Origin: Pirellulales bacterium
GTDB lineage: Bacteria > Planctomycetota > Planctomycetia > Pirellulales > Thermoguttaceae
Assembly: GCA_016928165.1 (NCBI GenBank)
Contig: JAFGLH010000128.1
Location: forward strand, 1 to 64,000
Direction: 5' to 3'
DNA: 64,000 nucleotides
Both the position numbers and the translations under genes were made by a program. Below, one piece after another: positions 10,522 through 20,856 of the stretch. The number at the start of each line of letters is the position of its first letter. Position 1 is the first letter of the stretch. The notes beneath the pieces are model-generated. The model searched no databases. It was not told the origin of the DNA and saw only the letters and a program-made list of their open reading frames with translations.

Positions 10522-11778
10522 CTAGGTTTTCAATGGTTGTAAGCGATCGAAGGTTTCTCCAAGAGGCAAGGTTCGTTCTCGATCGTTCTCTAGCGGCGGC
10601 TTGAATGAAGGCGATCCCAACTCGTTGCTCGGCCTGAGCCAATAACACGATTCGGGATTGGCGATCGCCTGTCGGGCAGCCGGTTTTTCCAAATTAAGGA
10701 TTGTCGGTCGCCGGATGCCCGGCAGAAACTGCACGTCGTACAGTTCCTCGCAGCCGACGGTGAACTCGAAGAATCCGGCCTGCCGACCGCTGCGCAGGTC
10801 CACCACCGCGACGCCGCAGAGCAGCCTTTCATATTTTTCTTGTACGGGGAGGCCCCCGAAAATGTGCTTCTCGCGGATTTTCGACAGCCCCACCAGCGCG
10901 TATGGCCCGTGGAAACAAAGACCGCGAAGATAACCGGGCAAACCGCAGACCGTCTCCGCCTTGCCGGTTTTCGGATCCGTCACAAGCAATTCGCCGGCGC
11001 CGGAGTTGAGCAGCCACAGCCGTCCGTCGTGCCATCGCGGAGAATGAGGCATCGCCAATCGGTCGAGAACGATTTCGTCCGTGTCCACGTCGATTACCAC
11101 TCCTCCGGTTGCCTTTCGTTCACGCCACGCGCCGGCCTCATCGGTGATACCCAACGCCGTAACATATTTGGGGCGACCTTCTCGCACCGCTATTCCATTC
11201 AGATGGCAGCGGTCCTCCGGCACCAGGTCGGTCACGAAACGGGGTTTCCACGCAGGGGTGAAACTGAAATCAAAACTCAATTTGGCTAGACAAGAAAACC
11301 GCGTAGCCGCCAGCCAAATCTCATCTTCCAGGATCGCCACGTCGTGCGTGTGCAGATCGCCGGTGTGATATGTTGCCCGGGGCAAATATATTGCATCGTA
11401 ACGCCCGGGCTGGTCCTCGATGTATTCGTATGCCAGCGACGGAGAGTTGGCGAACACCCACAGGTCGTGCCGGGCGGCCAGCACTATTCTATTTGCGGAG
11501 GCCGTCAGACCGAGGGGCTTGTCGAACTGGCGCATCAGCAGGGTCGCCCGGCGACCGTCCCAACCGATCAAGGCGACCTTGCCGGCCTGATAAGTGGAGG
11601 CTGCTATAGCGCCATCGGCGCTTGCCAACCACTCCTGAAAATCCGGAGTCGTCGAACAAGCGACGGCCACCGGATCATTCACCACGGCCTGACTTCCCAT
11701 ACTTCCGTACATGTCGCTCGGAGGTTCGAGCTGACGACTCCTCGATGCCCAGTCGTCGCTCCTGGCACCGTACGACAC
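10522..11778 (-). CDS. TIGR03032 / DUF4915-like protein
   Basis: The 418-residue product resembles the TIGR03032 family: FQEWLASADGAIAASTYQAGK near the N-terminus, then beta-propeller-like sequence with HTHDVAI, CHLNGIA and MPHSPRWHDGRLWLLNSGAGEL. The biochemical function of this family is not known to me. It is co-oriented with the giant gene, which starts 85 bp beyond its stop, so the two are probably one transcript and may act together. The track start is a GTG at 11778 with AAAGG too close to serve as a Shine-Dalgarno. ATG 11712 or ATG 11703 are reasonable alternatives and would suit the promoter-like sequence at 11784-11812. No signal peptide is apparent, so the product is probably cytoplasmic. 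Confidence 0.75.
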   Translation of the reverse strand: MSYGARSDDWASRSRQLEPPSDMYGSMGSQAVVNDPVAVACSTTPDFQEWLASADGAIAASTYQAGKVALIGWDGRRATLLMRQFDKPLGLTASANRIVLAARHDLWVFANSPSLAYEYIEDQPGRYDAIYLPRATYHTGDLHTHDVAILEDEIWLAATRFSCLAKLSFDFSFTPAWKPRFVTDLVPEDRCHLNGIAVREGRPKYVTALGITDEAGAWRERKATGGVVIDVDTDEIVLDRLAMPHSPRWHDGRLWLLNSGAGELLVTDPKTGKAETVCGLPGYLRGLCFHGPYALVGLSKIREKHIFGGLPVQEKYERLLCGVAVVDLRSGRQAGFFEFTVGCEELYDVQFLPGIRRPTILNLEKPAARQAIANPESCYWLRPSNELGSPSFKPPLENDRERTLPLGETFDRLQPLKT

Positions 11779-12226: not shown

Positions 12227-13474
12227 ATGACGTTCAACCGCACTATCACATACGGGGTCATCGTATTTATGCTTCTGCTGTCGGCTGCGCCGACCAACGG
12301 GCAAGGACCGGGAGGATTCCAGATCTTTGGTCTGGCGGACGTGAGCACATACGGAGGCAATCAAAAGCCCAACGAGGGATACTTTTTCCAGTTTGATGGG
12401 CTTTATTGGTCCATTACCCCGCCGGAAACTCATCCGGTCGGGTATCCCGGCACCCGAACCGTTTACTATGGAATTCACCCGACCAGCCCCTTGGACACCG
12501 AGAGCGACGCCCGCATTCAATCGAATACGCTGGACACATCGGTCTTCGACAACCAATTCAGGGCAGGCAATCGCATCGAATTCGGACGGATCGAAAACCG
12601 CAACGGCTGGCTCGTGAGCATCTTCCAACTCCGCGATGAAATACAGAACTACGAGGCCGACGGCGCCGACATGGTTTTCAACGATCCGGCGTTCGGGCCG
12701 TACGGCGAGCGTCTCTTGTACGGAAACGTAAACAACAACAGTTCGAGCACACCGCCTTATTCACCGCCGGTGTTTAGCGATTTGCCGTTGACGTTCTACG
12801 ATATCTTGCTTCAGAAAAAGATCGATACTTGGGGAGTGGAAACGAGCTACTTGCACAGGTTCCGCACCCGGCACGGCGGCGGGACGTTGGAGATGTTCTT
12901 TGGAGCTCGGTACTTCGAGTTCAACGAGAATTTTTGGGTCACCACCGGTTCCACCCTGGCCGGTACCGCAGATACGGGCGCTTTCTCCTATCTCCAGAAC
13001 AGTTCCTGGAATAGCGACACTGAGAACCACATCGTGGGACCGCAAATCGGTTTGCGCTGGTTCAAAAAGCGGGGCAGATGGATGGTATCCACCGAAGGCC
13101 GCTTCCTGGCCGGACTTAATTGTCAAAACATCCACATGCAAGCGGACATCGGACCGTCTCTGACCGATCCGGGCGCGAACCCCGACGGCAGCTATGATCC
13201 GTTCGTGCCTAAAACGATGACTTCCACGTCATCGACCCATGCCGTCTACGAAAGGGAGTGGTCGCCGGCGGTTGAGTTGCGGGTGGAAGGGCGGTATCAG
13301 GTTACCCGCTCGATCTCAGTCCACGCCGGTTGGTCTGGAATGTGGATCGACGGCGTTGCCCGGGCCAGCAGCGTGATCGACTATACCGTCCCCTCGATGG
13401 GAATCAACCTGGCCCACAACCAAGAAGACGTGTTCCTGAACGGACTGACGCTCGGCTTCGACGTCAATCGTTAA
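12227..13474 (+). CDS. BBP7-like outer membrane beta-barrel protein
   Basis: The 415-residue product starts with a signal peptide (hydrophobic VIVFMLLLSAAP, cleavage probably after TNGQ). It continues with alternating aromatic and polar beta-strand sequence: YFFQFDGLYWSI, MFFGARYFEFNENFW, NHIVGPQIGLRWF and, at the end, DVFLNGLTLGFDVNR. This layout is typical of planctomycete BBP7-family porin-like proteins, where a lone barrel is predicted in the outer membrane; ligand and transport function are unknown. The next gene converges on it, 70 bp away. I see no strong Shine-Dalgarno before the ATG, but the signal peptide supports the start. Confidence 0.7.
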   Translation: MTFNRTITYGVIVFMLLLSAAPTNGQGPGGFQIFGLADVSTYGGNQKPNEGYFFQFDGLYWSITPPETHPVGYPGTRTVYYGIHPTSPLDTESDARIQSNTLDTSVFDNQFRAGNRIEFGRIENRNGWLVSIFQLRDEIQNYEADGADMVFNDPAFGPYGERLLYGNVNNNSSSTPPYSPPVFSDLPLTFYDILLQKKIDTWGVETSYLHRFRTRHGGGTLEMFFGARYFEFNENFWVTTGSTLAGTADTGAFSYLQNSSWNSDTENHIVGPQIGLRWFKKRGRWMVSTEGRFLAGLNCQNIHMQADIGPSLTDPGANPDGSYDPFVPKTMTSTSSTHAVYEREWSPAVELRVEGRYQVTRSISVHAGWSGMWIDGVARASSVIDYTVPSMGINLAHNQEDVFLNGLTLGFDVNR

Positions 13475-13544: not shown

Positions 13545-16500
13545 TCAGCAGTCGTTTGCTTGGCCCGTCGCAGCCATGCTTGGCTCCGCTTGGACCTTCC
13601 GATCGGAAACAAACCGCTCGAGCTCCTGGGCCATCACGTCGACGGCGTATCGAATCTGCTTTTCGGTGTGCGCCGCCGAAATAAAGTATCTCAGCCGGGC
13701 CGCGTTCTCTTCGACGGCCGGATGGATGATCGGCTGAACGTTCACGCCTCGCAAAAACATCGCCTTGGACAGTTGCAAGCAAAGAATCGAGTTGCCCAGG
13801 ATAACCGGCACCACCGGCGTGTCCTTGCTGCTGCCGGTGTTCAATCCGTTCCGTTTGGCCAGATCGAGGAACAGCCGCGAGTTTTCCCGCAGTTGCGAGA
13901 CCCGATCGGGTTCATTCCGCAACAGCCGCAACGAGGTCAGGGCCGCAGCGGCGGAAGCGGGCGGAATGGCCGCCGCGAAAACGAAGCCGGGCGCCGTGTA
14001 GCGAAGATAGTCGGCCAGCGCCTTGCAGCCGGCGATATAGCCGCCGCAACTTCCAATGCTTTTGCTCAACGTTCCCATCCATATATCGACGTCCTCGGCG
14101 GGAACGCCGAAGTGTTCGCCGATGCCGCGGCCCGTGGCGCCCAATATCCCCAAGGAATGCGCCTCGTCGATCATCAACAGGGCCTTGTGGCGCTTCTTTA
14201 ATTCGATGAACTTGGGCAACTCGGGGATGTCGCCGTCCATGCTGTAGACGCCCTCGATCGCCACCAATACGCGCCGGTATTCGTGGCGATACTGTTCGAG
14301 CAGCTTGTCGGCCGCCCGCCAATCGTTGTGTGGGAAAGGCCGTCGCCGCGCCCCGGAAAGAATGCAACCCTGCACGATGCTGTTGTGGGCCAGGGAATCG
14401 TGAAGGATCAAGTCGCCGGGGCCGAACATGTGGCCGATGACCGATTCGTTGGTGGCGTGGCCGCCGACAAAGGCAACGGTGTCCTCGGTCCCCAAAAAGC
14501 TCGATATTTCCCGCTCCAACTCGACGTGGATCAATTTCTGTCCGGAGACCACACGGCTTGCCGAAGCGCTGGTGCCGTAGCGGTCGATGGCCTCCTTTGC
14601 GGCTTGGTTGACCGCCGGATCGCCCGAGAAACCGAGGTAGTTGTAGCTGGAGAAATTGATGTATTGCTTGCCGCCGATGATCGTCGTGTCCCGCGCCGGT
14701 CCGTCGTGCGCCATGAAGAACGGGTTGCCCGTTCCCGTGGCTTCGAGCATGTCGAGGCTATCCCGCAGTCGAACGTATTCGGGGAACAGGTCGAAGCGAT
14801 GCGTTGGCTCGGGTATTTCTCCGTCGGCCGGCCGCGTGCTGGCCGGACGCGGCTCGATGCCTAGATACTTCTCCACGGCCGCGACGAGTTGCCGGGTGGT
14901 CTCCAGTTCGGGAAGCACTTCTTCGGGAAACCGCCCGCCAAACTTGTCTTCCAACGAGGCTAATATCTCCATCCTCTCCAAAGAATCCATACCGGTCTCG
15001 ACGATCGGCGAATCGAGCGTCATGCCGTCGGCGCGTTCCTTCGCCACGCGGCGGATTTCTTCAACCACAAGTTCGGTTAAACGGTGACCGGCCGGGATTT
15101 TTTCCACGACGGCGGGACGTTCGTCCTGAGGTTGGAACGACGGCTCTGTAGCAGAGGTGTCTTTTCGAGTTGTTTTTCGTTTTCGTGTTCCAGTGGGCGC
15201 CGAAGCGGCTAGTCTTCGCCCCTCGCCCCTCGCCCCTAGTCCCTCGCTCCCCAGCCCTCGTCCATCGTCAATCCAACGACCGACCACATTCAAGGTTTTG
15301 GCTAAGAACCCCTCGCGACAGGCGTGTCTCTGAATTTTTCCGCTGGATGTCTTGGGAATGCTGCCTGCTTTCAACAATAATATCTCGGCGGGAACCAACT
15401 CGTGTTCCACGGCCACGGCCCGTCGCACGGCGTCGAAGACTTCATCGAAGTTTGATCGTTTGTGCCGTTCGATTTCCTGAACAACGATAAGCCGCTCGAT
15501 GCTGTTCATTTCCACGACGAAGGCCGCTCCGCCGTCGAGGCGCAGCCGGGGGTGGCTCTGCTGTACGGAAAGCTCGATGTCTTGCGGATAGTAGTTCACT
15601 CCGCGGACGATAAGCAGGTCTTTTAGCCGGCCGGTTACGTAAAGTTCCCCGTCTCTAATGAATCCCAAGTCGCCTGTCCGCAGAAAAGGCCCCTCGCCAC
15701 TGTCGGCCAACCTGGCACGGAAAACCTGCTCGGTGGCTTTTTCTTGCATCCAATATCCCTGCGCGACGCTCGGACCTTGGACCCAAATCTCACCGATCCG
15801 ACCGGGCGAACAGGGGATTCGAGTCTCTGGATCGACGATTTCGATTCGCTGGTCGGGAAGGTTTTCACCGCAACCGACTAATTCCCTGCCGGCCGGATCG
15901 TCCGGTTCGACGGGGACCGCTTCGTTTCGGGAGAGCCCCTCGGCTTCGAAGGAATTGATTATCGGTTGCTTGTGGACGAACCCGCCGGAGACGATCAATG
16001 TTGCCTCGGCCAGTCCGAAGCATGGATAGAACGCTTCCCGGCGAAAACCGCAAGGGGCAAACACCTCGGCGAAAGTTTCGAGCGTTTCCGCCCGCACCGG
16101 CTCCGCCCCGTTGAAGGCCACACGCCAACTGCTCAAGTCAAGTTTTTTTCGTTGTTCAGACGTGACCTTGCGGATGCAGTGCTCGTAGGCGAAGTTCGGT
16201 CCTCCGCTGGTGCTGCCGCGATATTTGGTAATCGCCGCGAGCCAACGATACGGCTTCTGCAAAAAACTCATCGGGGAAATCAGCACGTTCGGCCGGCCGA
16301 CGTACAGCGGCTGAAGGATGCCCCCAATCAACCCCATGTCGTGGTAGCTGGGCAACCAAAACACGCCCGTGCCCGAGCGGGTATGCTCAAAGGAGTATGA
16401 AATCAGCGCAGAGTTGTGGACGAGGTTGGCATGGTTTAGCACTACCCCCTTCGGCGTGCCGGTCGAGCCGGAGGTATATTGTAAGAAAGCCAACGTATCG

Positions 16501-17006
16501 CCGTGGACGTCGGGCATTGTCCAATCGACGGCCGTCTCGGCCGAAACCCGACAAGTGGGCAGCCAGGCAAGCTGCTTGAGATGGGGGGTTTGGTCAATTA
16601 GGGGCATAACCCGGCTCAATACTGAATCGGTCGTCAGCGCCACCCGTGCCTCGGCGTCGTCGGCGATCGCCTGTATGCGATTCAGCGATCGGTTTCGGCG
16701 GGGGGGGTAGACGGGCACGGCGATCACGCCCGCGTAAAGGCACCCAAAAAAGGCGGCGATGAACTCCAGACCGGCCGGATAGAGCAACAAGGCCCGTTGC
16801 CCCACCAGATCGTGCGATTCGAGCCATGCGCCGATCGCCCGTGCCTGACGGTCGAGTTCCCTGTAAGTCAGAGAGATTTCTTCGTTCTCGCCGTCGACCA
16901 GGTACGTGAAGGCGATGTCAGTCGGCTGGCACCGCGCGCGATGCAGCAACAGTTCCACTAGGTTGGAAGGGCCGAAAAACGTCCCAGGCAAAGAATCCAG
17001 ATGCAC
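13545..17006 (-). CDS. Fatty acyl-AMP ligase / acyl carrier protein / alpha-oxoamine synthase fusion
   Basis: A 1153-residue three-domain enzyme. Residues ~1-590 are an adenylate-forming domain with YTSGSTGTPKG and the FAAL-type run LPSYHDMGLIGGILQPLYVG. Residues ~640-720 are a carrier domain with GMDSLERM (S675 for phosphopantetheine). Residues ~755-1130 are a fold-type I PLP enzyme of the serine palmitoyltransferase / AONS / ALAS family, with FSSYNYLG, DEAHSLGILG and GTLSKSIGSCGGY (K982 as PLP lysine). Inferred reaction: activate a free fatty acid as acyl-AMP, load it on the fused ACP, and condense it with an amino acid to give a long-chain 3-ketoamine, that is, a sphingoid-like base made without CoA. 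Which amino acid is used cannot be told by eye. No ceramide synthase or ketosphinganine reductase sits next to it; the neighbours are unrelated. All signature motifs look intact. Confidence 0.85.
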   Translation of the reverse strand: MHLDSLPGTFFGPSNLVELLLHRARCQPTDIAFTYLVDGENEEISLTYRELDRQARAIGAWLESHDLVGQRALLLYPAGLEFIAAFFGCLYAGVIAVPVYPPRRNRSLNRIQAIADDAEARVALTTDSVLSRVMPLIDQTPHLKQLAWLPTCRVSAETAVDWTMPDVHGDTLAFLQYTSGSTGTPKGVVLNHANLVHNSALISYSFEHTRSGTGVFWLPSYHDMGLIGGILQPLYVGRPNVLISPMSFLQKPYRWLAAITKYRGSTSGGPNFAYEHCIRKVTSEQRKKLDLSSWRVAFNGAEPVRAETLETFAEVFAPCGFRREAFYPCFGLAEATLIVSGGFVHKQPIINSFEAEGLSRNEAVPVEPDDPAGRELVGCGENLPDQRIEIVDPETRIPCSPGRIGEIWVQGPSVAQGYWMQEKATEQVFRARLADSGEGPFLRTGDLGFIRDGELYVTGRLKDLLIVRGVNYYPQDIELSVQQSHPRLRLDGGAAFVVEMNSIERLIVVQEIERHKRSNFDEVFDAVRRAVAVEHELVPAEILLLKAGSIPKTSSGKIQRHACREGFLAKTLNVVGRWIDDGRGLGSEGLGARGEGRRLAASAPTGTRKRKTTRKDTSATEPSFQPQDERPAVVEKIPAGHRLTELVVEEIRRVAKERADGMTLDSPIVETGMDSLERMEILASLEDKFGGRFPEEVLPELETTRQLVAAVEKYLGIEPRPASTRPADGEIPEPTHRFDLFPEYVRLRDSLDMLEATGTGNPFFMAHDGPARDTTIIGGKQYINFSSYNYLGFSGDPAVNQAAKEAIDRYGTSASASRVVSGQKLIHVELEREISSFLGTEDTVAFVGGHATNESVIGHMFGPGDLILHDSLAHNSIVQGCILSGARRRPFPHNDWRAADKLLEQYRHEYRRVLVAIEGVYSMDGDIPELPKFIELKKRHKALLMIDEAHSLGILGATGRGIGEHFGVPAEDVDIWMGTLSKSIGSCGGYIAGCKALADYLRYTAPGFVFAAAIPPASAAAALTSLRLLRNEPDRVSQLRENSRLFLDLAKRNGLNTGSSKDTPVVPVILGNSILCLQLSKAMFLRGVNVQPIIHPAVEENAARLRYFISAAHTEKQIRYAVDVMAQELERFVSDRKVQAEPSMAATGQANDC

Positions 17007-17210: not shown

Positions 17211-17846
17211 ATGATCGAGATTACCTGCCCAAGTTGCAACCGAAAGCTCCGCGCCAAGTCCGAACTGGCCGGCCGGATGGGCAAGTGTCCCAACTGCGGT
17301 CAGCCGATCCGGATCGCCGCCGAGGCCCCGGACGAAACCACGGATGACGTTCAGGAGGTCCAACAATTACAGCCGCCAAATGAAGAGCGTCTTCCCACGT
17401 ACAGCGCGCCAAACAGGCTTAACCGTGAGAGCCGCTACTTAATTTGCGATAAGTCGCGTTTGGTGGCCCTCTGGGACAACAACGGCAGCGGGTGGATGCT
17501 GATAACCGGCGTTGGAGAAATCCCTGTCAAACGAAACCGCGACAATATCCCCACCACCGGCACATACCAACTCGTCGAGTTGAAATTCACCATGACACCC
17601 GAAGGAAAGCGTCTATCGGGCGTCGCCTGCTACGAGCTTGGTTCGCGTTGGGCTTTGACCGTCTTGGAACAAGGGGACGATACGATCACCGAGAAAATCA
17701 CTGGGCCGGGCTGCTTGAACAGAGATCAAAAGAACGCCGTTCGCACTGAGATAAAAAAGCATTTTATGCAGCCCGTGTGGCAAGATTCCATGGCGGTGAT
17801 GGATTTTCTATCCAACGCCGACTTCCACTCGCCGGGCGTGGAGTAA
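17211..17846 (+). CDS. Zinc-ribbon protein of unknown function
   Basis: The 211-residue product begins with a short zinc ribbon of the form CPSC-x(17)-CPNCG (residues 6-27), common at the N-terminus of planctomycete hypothetical proteins. An acidic, glutamine-rich linker follows, then a ~140-residue region without recognised motif (WMLITGVGEIPVKR, YQLVELKF, CYELGSRWALTVLEQGDD). The start is well supported by a GGGGGG run 7-13 bases before the ATG. A TTGACA at 17135-17140 with a poor -10 (TACCGT, 17-base spacing) might be the promoter. No signal peptide or membrane segment. It stands alone between a minus-strand gene and a two-component pair, and its function is unknown. Confidence 0.6.
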   Translation: MIEITCPSCNRKLRAKSELAGRMGKCPNCGQPIRIAAEAPDETTDDVQEVQQLQPPNEERLPTYSAPNRLNRESRYLICDKSRLVALWDNNGSGWMLITGVGEIPVKRNRDNIPTTGTYQLVELKFTMTPEGKRLSGVACYELGSRWALTVLEQGDDTITEKITGPGCLNRDQKNAVRTEIKKHFMQPVWQDSMAVMDFLSNADFHSPGVE

Positions 17847-18070: not shown

Positions 18071-18108
18071 ACATAGTTTGTCATTTGCCGGTATTTGAAG
18101 ACGCGACC

Positions 18109-19395
18109 ATGAGACTCCCCCCCGAAGGTGCGCGCTGGCTCGTTACGCTCCGTTTTTGGGCCTGTGCGGCGATATTCACGGCGACAACCGTCGCCTGGGC
18201 GCTGGACGTGTTGCCGCACCCCCTGCCTTTGTATGGGGTCGGCGCGGTTGTGTTCGTTTACAACCTCTTATTCACGTTCAGCCAGCGCGATTGGTCCGTC
18301 AGCGGGCGCGGCGTAGATAGGATTATCTTTCTTCAAATCATCTTCGATCTGGCCGCATTGACCGCGTTGTTGTACTTCGCCGACTTGCCGAGAAACCCGT
18401 TCATTTCATATTACGTTTTTCACATGATAATCGCGGGGATGTACCTTCGCGGTAATTTGCCATACGTGGTGGCGGCCGTGGCCACCTCGCTGGTCGGCGG
18501 CGTAATGCTGCTGGAATACCTGGAGCTGATTCCGCGTTTTCCGTTGCGGTTTTCGGGCGATCCGACCGGGTTGTGGACAATCGACGGCCTGTACGCGTTC
18601 AGCGTCTTCGCGGCGCTCGGCAGCACGTTGTGGATCGCCGTCTATTTCAGCACGGCCATCCGCCGCTACGTCGACCGCGCCCACGCCGAACTGCGCCAGA
18701 AAGAAAAACTTCTTGGCATCGGCCAGTTGGTGGCCGGCATCGCACATCAAATAGCCAATCCGCTCGACGGGGCGCAGAACTGTCTGCGCAAGATCGGAGA
18801 AGCCGTCGGGAGCGATCCGCAATCCACCGAATACGTGGAGATGATGACCGATGCCTTGGAGCGGATCGAGCGGACGGCCAAACGAGTGCAATCGTTCGCC
18901 TTGCCGGGAGGAATCACGCTGACGAACACCGACGTTAACTCGGTGGTGAAGGCGATCCTGCCGTTGTTGGAAAACGCCCGCGGCGGAAACGTAATCGTGC
19001 GCACCGAGTTGGGCCGCGTGCCGCCCGTCAAGGGCGACCCCTACGCGCTGCAAGAGGTGATTTTCAACCTCTGCACGAACGCCTTCGCCGCCATGCCCCA
19101 CGGGGGAACATTAACCCTTCGCACTCGGACCCTCGGCGGCAGCGACGACGATCAGATGGATTCGGTGGCGATCGAGGTGGCCGACACGGGCGAGGGCATC
19201 CCGCGAACGCATTTGGAAAAGATTTTCGAGCCGTTTTTCACCACCCGAGCCGAGGAAGGGGGCACCGGTTTAGGATTGGGGCTTTGCCGCATGTTGATCA
19301 GCGAAATGGGAGGACGGATCGAAGTCCGAACCGCACTGAGCCAAGGAACGGTATTCACCGTGACGCTTAATCCAATGGAAAAGGAAAACGATTGA
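18109..19395 (+). CDS. Membrane-bound sensor histidine kinase
   Basis: From ATG 18109 the product has 428 residues; the track uses TTG 18085, which adds eight residues and lacks a Shine-Dalgarno. Residues ~10-190 form about six transmembrane helices with almost no extracytoplasmic loops, so it probably senses the membrane or an internal signal. A short coiled segment leads to the H-box GIAHQIANPLDG (H213; Gln replaces the more common Glu after His). The ATPase domain has NLCTNAFAAMPHGG (N box), DTGEGIP (G1) and GTGLGLGLC (G2). It autophosphorylates on His and should pass phosphate to the NtrC-type regulator encoded 126 bp downstream on the same strand. Confidence 0.85.
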   Translation: MRLPPEGARWLVTLRFWACAAIFTATTVAWALDVLPHPLPLYGVGAVVFVYNLLFTFSQRDWSVSGRGVDRIIFLQIIFDLAALTALLYFADLPRNPFISYYVFHMIIAGMYLRGNLPYVVAAVATSLVGGVMLLEYLELIPRFPLRFSGDPTGLWTIDGLYAFSVFAALGSTLWIAVYFSTAIRRYVDRAHAELRQKEKLLGIGQLVAGIAHQIANPLDGAQNCLRKIGEAVGSDPQSTEYVEMMTDALERIERTAKRVQSFALPGGITLTNTDVNSVVKAILPLLENARGGNVIVRTELGRVPPVKGDPYALQEVIFNLCTNAFAAMPHGGTLTLRTRTLGGSDDDQMDSVAIEVADTGEGIPRTHLEKIFEPFFTTRAEEGGTGLGLGLCRMLISEMGGRIEVRTALSQGTVFTVTLNPMEKEND

Positions 19396-19521
19396 TTTTC
19401 GCGCGTTTGCGTCCCCGCCGTTGATGCGGCAGTTGCACCGCCGTACGGGAAAACCGGGATGGCGGTACGACTGTTTCTCCAACCGAGAGTGCGTTTACAT
19501 TCCAAAAGAATTTGATCTACA

Positions 19522-20856
19522 ATGAGAATCCTTGTCGCCGACGACGAACGAATCAAATTGGTCACGCTGGCCAACGACCTTGCCGCCCGGGGGCACGAGG
19601 TGGATACAGCCGGCGACGGCGCCGAGGCGCTGGATAAATTCACTTCCGGCAGCTTCGACGTCGTGGTGACCGATCTGAAGATGCCCAAAATCGACGGCAT
19701 CGAACTGCTCAAGCGAATCAAGCAGGACCCGCGCGCCGACGCCGAGGTAATAATTATGACGGCCTATGGAAGCATCCCCCTGGCGGTCGAGGCGGGCAAG
19801 CTCGGAGCCTTCGACTTCTTGACCAAGCCGTTCAATAACGAGGACATTTTCCCGTTGTTGGATCGGATCGCATCCGCCCGTCGCGGCAAGGAACCCGCGA
19901 GCGGGGAAGCGGCCGAAAAGACGATCGATAAAATCGACCAGGCGGTTGTCGGTCAATCGACGCCGATGCGTTCGGTGCGGCGTCTGGTCGAGATATGCGC
20001 CCGCTCCGATGCCAACGTCTTGCTTTGCGGCGAAACGGGAGTAGGCAAGGACTTGATTGCGCTGACTATACATCGCAACTCACACCGCCGCGCCGCCCCC
20101 TTCGTCAAGGTTGGCTGCACTCTATTTCCCAGCCAGTTGATAGAAAGCGAACTGTACGGACACGAAAAAGGTGCCTTTACCGGCGCCGAGCAGCGACGCC
20201 TGGGTCGTTTCGAGCTGGCCGAGGGGGGGACCCTCTATTTGGACGACGTGGACGACATCCCCCTCGAACAACAGACCAAACTGCTTCGCGCTATCGAGGA
20301 AAAAACTTTCGAGCGGGTCGGCGCCGCTGACGAACGGAAGGCCGACGTGCGTATTGTCGCATCGACGAAAAAAGACCTCCTGCAGAAAATCGCCGCCGGG
20401 GAGTTCCGGCAGGATCTTTATTACCGATTGGAGGTTCTCAGAATAGATGTCCCTCCGCTCCGAGAACGGCTCGACGACGTGCCCATGCTGTCCGAGCACT
20501 TGCTCAAGCGGTTTGCCAAGGACGGACCGGGGCAGCTCGAGCCGTCGGCCGTCGAGATACTCAAGCGCCACGACTGGCCGGGCAATGTCCGCGAGTTGGC
20601 GCACTTGCTGCAACGCGCCTACCTGATCGGCGGCGGCGTTGTCGGCGGCGATTTGCTGTTGAAGGAGCTACGCGCGGCGGCGAAAAAACGCCGCGTCCGC
20701 TCCGGCCACTTCCAGGAAACAATCGAAAAAACCGAGCGGGAGCTGCTGCAAAGCGCATTGGAAGAGTCCCAGGGCAACAAGTCGGCAGCCGCCGCCGCGC
20801 TGGGTATGAAACTCTCCACCTTCCGCGACAAACTGGTCAAGCACGGGTTGGGATAA
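19522..20856 (+). CDS. Sigma-54-dependent response regulator (NtrC family)
   Basis: The 444-residue product has a receiver domain (phosphoacceptor D51 in VVVTDLKMPKIDG, then T-loop IIMTAYGS and K in FLTKPF). The AAA+ domain has Walker A GETGVGKD and the sigma-54 contact loop GAFTGAE. A Fis-type helix-turn-helix ends the protein (NKSAAAAALGMKLSTFRDKL). Walker B reads TLYLDDVDDIP where the family usually has LDEIGDL, so the catalytic Glu position is Asp. With the upstream kinase it forms a two-component pair, and its GAFTGA loop means targets should have -24/-12 promoters. Target genes are not evident; no strict -24/-12 site was found nearby. Confidence 0.88.
   Translation: MRILVADDERIKLVTLANDLAARGHEVDTAGDGAEALDKFTSGSFDVVVTDLKMPKIDGIELLKRIKQDPRADAEVIIMTAYGSIPLAVEAGKLGAFDFLTKPFNNEDIFPLLDRIASARRGKEPASGEAAEKTIDKIDQAVVGQSTPMRSVRRLVEICARSDANVLLCGETGVGKDLIALTIHRNSHRRAAPFVKVGCTLFPSQLIESELYGHEKGAFTGAEQRRLGRFELAEGGTLYLDDVDDIPLEQQTKLLRAIEEKTFERVGAADERKADVRIVASTKKDLLQKIAAGEFRQDLYYRLEVLRIDVPPLRERLDDVPMLSEHLLKRFAKDGPGQLEPSAVEILKRHDWPGNVRELAHLLQRAYLIGGGVVGGDLLLKELRAAAKKRRVRSGHFQETIEKTERELLQSALEESQGNKSAAAAALGMKLSTFRDKLVKHGLG

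Follow-up and report, generated by a model that had tools for sequence, protein, structure and literature searches.

Gene organization and domain structure

The window, that is, the whole stretch of 64,000 nucleotides analysed here, belongs to a 3.6-Mb Thermoguttaceae MAG that is 88.5% complete. Reading of its open frames showed a gene with a GTG start coding for 1,153 amino acids, in which a fatty acyl-AMP ligase (FAAL), an acyl carrier (ACP) domain and an alpha-oxoamine synthase (AOS) follow one another in a single polypeptide (Table 1). The gene boundaries of the original prediction were exact, and the strand, which it had not given, is the minus strand. It had also described fused adenylation, carrier and PLP modules with S675 and K982; the three modules were recovered by Pfam and both residues were found at these positions.

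Pfam placed AMP-binding at residues 22-419 (7e-68), AMP-dom_DIP2-like, corresponding to the C-terminal subdomain of the ligase, at 463-574, PP-binding at 646-711 (6e-10) and Aminotran_1_2 at 781-1123 (8e-47). The FAAL motifs YTSGSTGTPKG (177), GLAEATL (331), RTGDLG (443) and PKTSSGK557 are present, as are all the residues of the AOS family: H874, D947 with H950 (DxxH), K982 and the carboxylate residue R1106. The window protein has Ser675 and the catalytic residues of both enzymes intact, and these are near-invariant over 29 fused homologues, Asp947 being replaced by Asn in two of them.

The AlphaFold2 model of the fusion, calculated with 14 sequences (mean pLDDT 70.5, pTM 0.47), consists of folded domains and a disordered linker at residues 583-640. 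When the parts of the model were compared by Foldseek, the AOS was closest to Thermus AOS and Sphingobacterium SPT, and the FAAL to that of the Synechococcus olefin synthase (7r7f, 53% identity, TMt 0.89).

Table 1. Positions in the window of the fusion gene, its domains and catalytic residues, and the adjacent genes
Feature	Position	Strand	Basis
Whole gene, FAAL-ACP-AOS fusion, 1,153 aa	13545..17006	-	ORF, Pfam domains, motif check
FAAL domain, residues 15-575	15282..16964	-	Pfam AMP-binding, PDB FAAL matches, motifs invariant in 29 homologues
Linker between FAAL and ACP, disordered and flexible, residues 583-640	15087..15260	-	pLDDT below 50
Acyl carrier domain, residues 646-711	14874..15071	-	Pfam PP-binding
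Ser675, phosphopantetheine attachment serine (GMDSLE)	14982..14984	-	Position checked; invariant 29/29
AOS domain, residues 739-1130, SgaB/RkpG-type clade	13617..14792	-	Pfam, tree, alignment, identities
His874, PLP-stacking histidine, followed by clade-typical Asn875-Ser876	14385..14387	-	Alignment, 29 homologues
Asp947 (DEAHS), PLP-N1 aspartate	14166..14168	-	Alignment, 29 homologues
Lys982 (TLSK982), PLP Schiff-base lysine	14061..14063	-	Position checked; alignment, 29 homologues
Convergent neighbour, BBP7 beta-barrel porin-like protein	12227..13474	+	Pfam; position beside fusion kept in many Pirellulales families
Divergent neighbour, protein without known function	17211..17846	+	Syntenic in same-family relatives

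Besides the two adjacent genes, the window contains at 10522-11778 a gene for a TIGR03032/DUF4915 protein (strong match, 411 bits), which adjoins that of the BBP7 barrel, and near the fusion at 18085-20853 a pair composed of a histidine kinase, with a weak PilS-like transmembrane match, and a sigma-54 response regulator. In a comparison of 29 fused loci three neighbours recurred and no others, namely a BBP7-like barrel, a TraB/GumN-like protein and a TIM barrel of the xylose-isomerase-like type. This pattern resembles gene order kept by descent; neither a constant operon nor a consistent partner gene was found over these loci. An aldo/keto reductase lies directly downstream of the fusion in three relatives and is not beside the gene elsewhere, and it is a weak candidate for the missing reductase.

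Subfamilies of the two enzyme domains

The AOS domain scored below the cut-offs of all the NCBIfam models compared, namely those for SPT (311/640, 285/500 and 231/670 bits), BioF (TIGR00858, 346 of 426 bits), glycine C-acetyltransferase of the Kbl type (311/460) and ALAS (243/339). The control SPTs, from an E. coli plasmid and from Parabacteroides, cleared their SPT cut-offs (600/500 and 684/640). Identity was 60% to a planctomycete PKS-fused AOS, 54-56% to PKS-linked AOSs of Pseudomonas and Caballeronia and 54-55% to Planktothrix, and just 31-36% to canonical SPT, Kbl and BioF. In the maximum-likelihood tree the domain was placed, with support of 100/98, in a clade with the PKS-linked AOSs and a Sinorhizobium RkpG-like protein, apart from the canonical SPTs; the motif starting at the catalytic histidine is HNS in this clade, the fusion included, and HAS in canonical SPT, BioF and Kbl. 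Judged from the tree and the identities, the AOS is a member of the SgaB/RkpG-type, PKS-linked clade and not a canonical SPT, BioF or Kbl.

The adjacent iterative PKS of the SgaB/RkpG type is not found at the fusion, where FAAL-ACP takes its place. The PKS-adjacent members of the clade sit with SDR, LTA synthase and capsule genes in the Caballeronia, Pseudomonas and Sinorhizobium loci, and the Pseudomonas locus with PKS, AOS, SDR and LTA synthase has the layout expected of PfSgaAB; it is by this layout and by the genus that PfSgaB was assigned to the clade. PfSgaB of Pseudomonas fluorescens MYb115 is a near-exclusively serine-specific SPT in vitro and makes 3-ketodihydrosphinganines, the end products of PfSgaAB in the cell being phosphoglycerol sphingolipids (PMC12134224).

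The FAAL domain matched a solved FAAL in the PDB with 660 bits. It is 55% identical to the FAALs of cyanobacterial FAAL-ACP-C megasynthases, 35% to AasR of the E. coli tripartite cluster, for which the plasmid copy served as reference for both AasR and SPT, and 32% to a Diaphorobacter relative; in the FAAL tree AasR and this relative make up a clade of their own (100/100). By these comparisons the domain belongs with the cyanobacterial megasynthase FAALs and not with the proteobacterial AasR. Descent of the fusion from the AasR/AcpR/SPT system was ruled out by the AOS and FAAL trees and identities, both enzyme domains being of other subfamilies.

Distribution in the order Pirellulales

The protein was matched at E<=1e-150 in 188 of the 196 genomes of the order (153/158 of the high-quality ones), 188 being an upper bound for the fusion because FAALs of other megasynthases account for a few of them, e.g. 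in G369. Chance is excluded by these order-wide matches together with the intact catalytic residues, near-invariant over the 29 homologues. By hand count of the matches listed, a single unbroken FAAL-to-AOS match occurs in about 120 genomes of the order, and in about 20 further genomes the FAAL match lies within an open frame of 1,121-1,329 aa, as in the verified same-family genome of the thermophile Thermogutta terrifontis R1 (G167), which has the fusion in a frame of 1,215 aa (L062), the orthologue lying at 3,325,357-3,328,872. In other orders of the class the fusion is mostly absent. By their FAAL domains the sampled fusions form a single clade (96/97), and this, together with the sharing of the barrel, TraB/GumN-like and TIM-barrel neighbours across families, makes vertical inheritance of the fusion most likely; within the order its distribution is that of a near-core gene.

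Exchange of the front end

The ACP-AOS unit stands behind a FAAL in most of the order and, in other planctomycete proteins of 2,570-2,586 aa, behind a full PKS module (G205, G327, G333 and G381). An AOS lies beside a PKS in G377 and beside FAAL and PKS genes in G097, and the planctomycete locus L098 (3446-11196) has a series of FAAL, KS-AT-DH PKS and SgaB-type AOS, which is apparently a FAAL-primed PKS feeding an AOS. Thus one ACP-AOS unit has had, in the course of evolution, either a PKS or an activator of fatty acids as its front end.

Adenylase-ACP-AOS fusions also occur in another planctomycete family, f30 (L088, 4668-7982; L089, 5269-8595; L090, 7744-11007; L091, 6259-9720). Their adenylation domain is about 23% identical to the FAAL, i.e. 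an unrelated front end, and by this comparison the family represents an independent origin of the architecture. In a FAAL-ACP-AOS protein of Legionella wadsworthii the FAAL falls outside the planctomycete clade, on a long branch. By the trees and identities, the combination of AMP-ligase, ACP and AOS has at least two origins and probably three.

In exactly those four genomes where a PKS-ACP-AOS paralogue was seen (L105, L063, L107 and L106), the FAAL fusion (L057, L058, L059 and L060) shows Asp947 replaced by Asn and HNS changed to HSS, and it has a long branch in the AOS tree. This suggests that the AOS of these four fusions may have been freed from constraint, or may have changed function, once the paralogue took over.

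Several FAAL matches elsewhere in the phylum are FAAL-NRPS, FAAL-PKS, FAAL-reductase and FAAL-hexapeptide proteins and not AOS fusions. In two loci of other planctomycetes (L092, 2248-5706; L093, 4531-7902) a FAAL is joined to a fatty-acyl reductase-like domain (Male sterility, NAD_binding_4), Pfam finding no ACP between them. On a plasmid of Legionella lytica (L079, 11896-16767) a FAAL-ACP-phosphosulfolactate synthase (ComA) fusion adjoins a phosphosulfolactate phosphatase and a very divergent PLP acyltransferase-like protein, and this locus is possibly a pathway for a sulfonated amino-lipid.

Proposed reaction and alternative readings

The domains, the residues and the clade of the AOS point to a self-contained synthase that probably converts a free C14-C18 fatty acid, ATP and L-serine into a 3-ketosphinganine-like base on one chain. 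After conversion of the fusion to the holo form by a PPTase (the genome has two genes of this family, one of AcpS size and one of Sfp size), the FAAL would adenylate a free fatty acid with ATP; from the family, chains of C14-C18 are probable, and the nearest FAAL structure, that of the olefin synthase, was solved with C16/C18 adenylates. The acyl group would then be taken over by the phosphopantetheine of Ser675 in the built-in ACP, and the flexible ACP would bring it as a thioester to the AOS and its PLP on Lys982, which would bind the amino acid, most likely L-serine. Decarboxylative Claisen condensation would release CO2 and give a 3-ketosphinganine-like amino ketone, and a reductase with head-group or N-acyl enzymes would later complete the lipid. 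The one-protein route to long-chain amino ketones foreseen in the original prediction is supported as far as sequence can tell, with serine added by analogy as the likeliest amino acid. A role in biotin synthesis was ruled out, a separate BioF being encoded on contig C177 with a score over the cut-off (456 bits).

Serine would be the likeliest amino acid of the fusion because its AOS falls in the SgaB-type clade. Amino-acid specificity is not safely readable from AOS sequences, which differ little between specificities, and the same chemistry with glycine, alanine or another amino acid would lead to 1-deoxy-sphingoid-like or other long-chain amino ketones. The HNS of the clade, in place of HAS beside the catalytic histidine, implies a pocket different from that of canonical SPTs, and the fused AOS of BioWF accepts Ala, Ser and Gly (PMC9544090); the near-exclusive use of serine by PfSgaB (PMC12134224), which is judged to be of the same clade, nevertheless makes another amino acid unlikely. 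Less probable still is that the amino-ketone lipid serves a surface polysaccharide as anchor or starter and is not a membrane lipid, as is suspected for RkpA-RkpG-RkpH and capsule-linked relatives, since neither the window nor the planctomycete loci examined have capsule genes beside the fusion, although the PKS-linked AOS relatives of Caballeronia, Pseudomonas and Sinorhizobium are found in capsule or polysaccharide clusters.

The kinase and regulator pair at 18085-20853 is close to the fusion in the window, and a similar pair directly follows it in the relative L061; this would suit an enzyme of the CqsA/LqsA kind that produces a cell-cell signal, the short amino or hydroxy ketones being sensed by the two-component system. 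Such a function is very improbable: the AOS reached 140 against a cut-off of 428 with the CqsA-type model, and the near-universal presence in the order and the long-chain type of FAAL fit a lipid better. A quorum signal read by the neighbouring kinase was rejected, as the pair is missing beside the gene in L009, the nearest relative (81% identity). The synthesis of a long-chain sphingoid-type base from serine is preferred.

Completion and possible role of the proposed lipid

The genome was searched for downstream genes of sphingolipid synthesis. With PF04339, which we take to be the model of the bacterial ceramide synthase bCerS, no FemAB-like ceramide synthase was found above the cut-off in the MAG (88.5% complete; best score 19.5 of 27 bits), the Caulobacter control being positive. 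For an SgaC/RkpH-like reductase the genome gave nothing beyond generic SDRs of about 30% identity, though the reductase may be a non-homologous one. The LTA synthase found with the pathway in Pseudomonas had no homologue in the genome, in a search run without a positive control genome. The search for ketosphinganine reductase and ceramide synthase genes that had been proposed earlier as a check thus gave nothing specific. The earlier hint at sphingolipid-like membrane lipids was too weak with regard to the order-wide conservation of the fusion and too strong with regard to these three activities.

From this conservation we infer that the product is a core lipid and not a secondary metabolite of scattered occurrence. 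It is tempting to speculate, as a tentative reading with slightly less in its favour than against it, that a sphingoid-type lipid may be a core constituent of the membrane or envelope in almost the whole order, its synthesis starting with one enzyme whose three domains load free fatty acids onto a carrier of its own, and that this lipid may be finished by a reductase and head-group enzymes unrelated to the known sphingolipid pathways. Sphingolipids have long been considered rare in bacteria; if the reading is true, sphingoid-like lipids would be a general trait of a large environmental planctomycete order, and the fusion a genetic marker for environmental lipid studies. The fusion would escape searches made with canonical SPT sequences or SPT cut-offs. 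It would also represent a compact enzyme with which sphingoid bases could be made from free fatty acid, ATP and serine.

Comparison with known systems

A search of a paper library for FAAL or fatty acyl-AMP ligase joined with SPT or alpha-oxoamine synthase found no paper. What is new is the architecture, its order-wide conservation and the subfamily assignment, the chemistry being already known. The bypass of acyl-CoA, which the original prediction had set against the usual needs of SPTs, is not unusual, since proteobacterial SPTs are fed by a dedicated acyl-ACP synthetase, AasR, with a dedicated ACP (PMC9386255), and the fusion of an adenylase to an AOS is known from BioWF (PMC9544090).

The AasR-AcpR-SPT system of Rhodobacteria (PMC9386255) resembles the fusion in that an acyl-AMP ligase charges a dedicated ACP feeding an AOS, but it is encoded by three separate genes, with a FAAL of another subfamily (35% identity, separate clade with support of 100/100) and an AOS of another clade (34% identity). 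BioWF (PMC9544090) likewise has an acid-activating adenylase fused to an AOS, but it is without ACP, proceeds via free pimeloyl-CoA and serves the unrelated purpose of biotin synthesis. The FAAL-ACP loading module of the Synechococcus olefin synthase, whose FAAL is 53% identical, supplies a PKS and not an AOS. The PKS(KS-AT-DH-ER-KR)-ACP-AOS fusions of planctomycetes and Planktothrix have a homologous C-terminal ACP-AOS unit (54% identity in L063) behind a PKS front end instead of a FAAL. PfSgaA/PfSgaB and the RkpA-RkpG and capsule-linked PKS-AOS pairs share with the fusion the AOS clade, a chain held on a carrier protein and the expected 3-ketosphinganine product; unlike PfSgaA/PfSgaB, the fusion would take its chain as a free fatty acid through the FAAL and not from an iterative PKS, has no SgaC-like SDR or LTA synthase nearby, and unites the whole system in one polypeptide.
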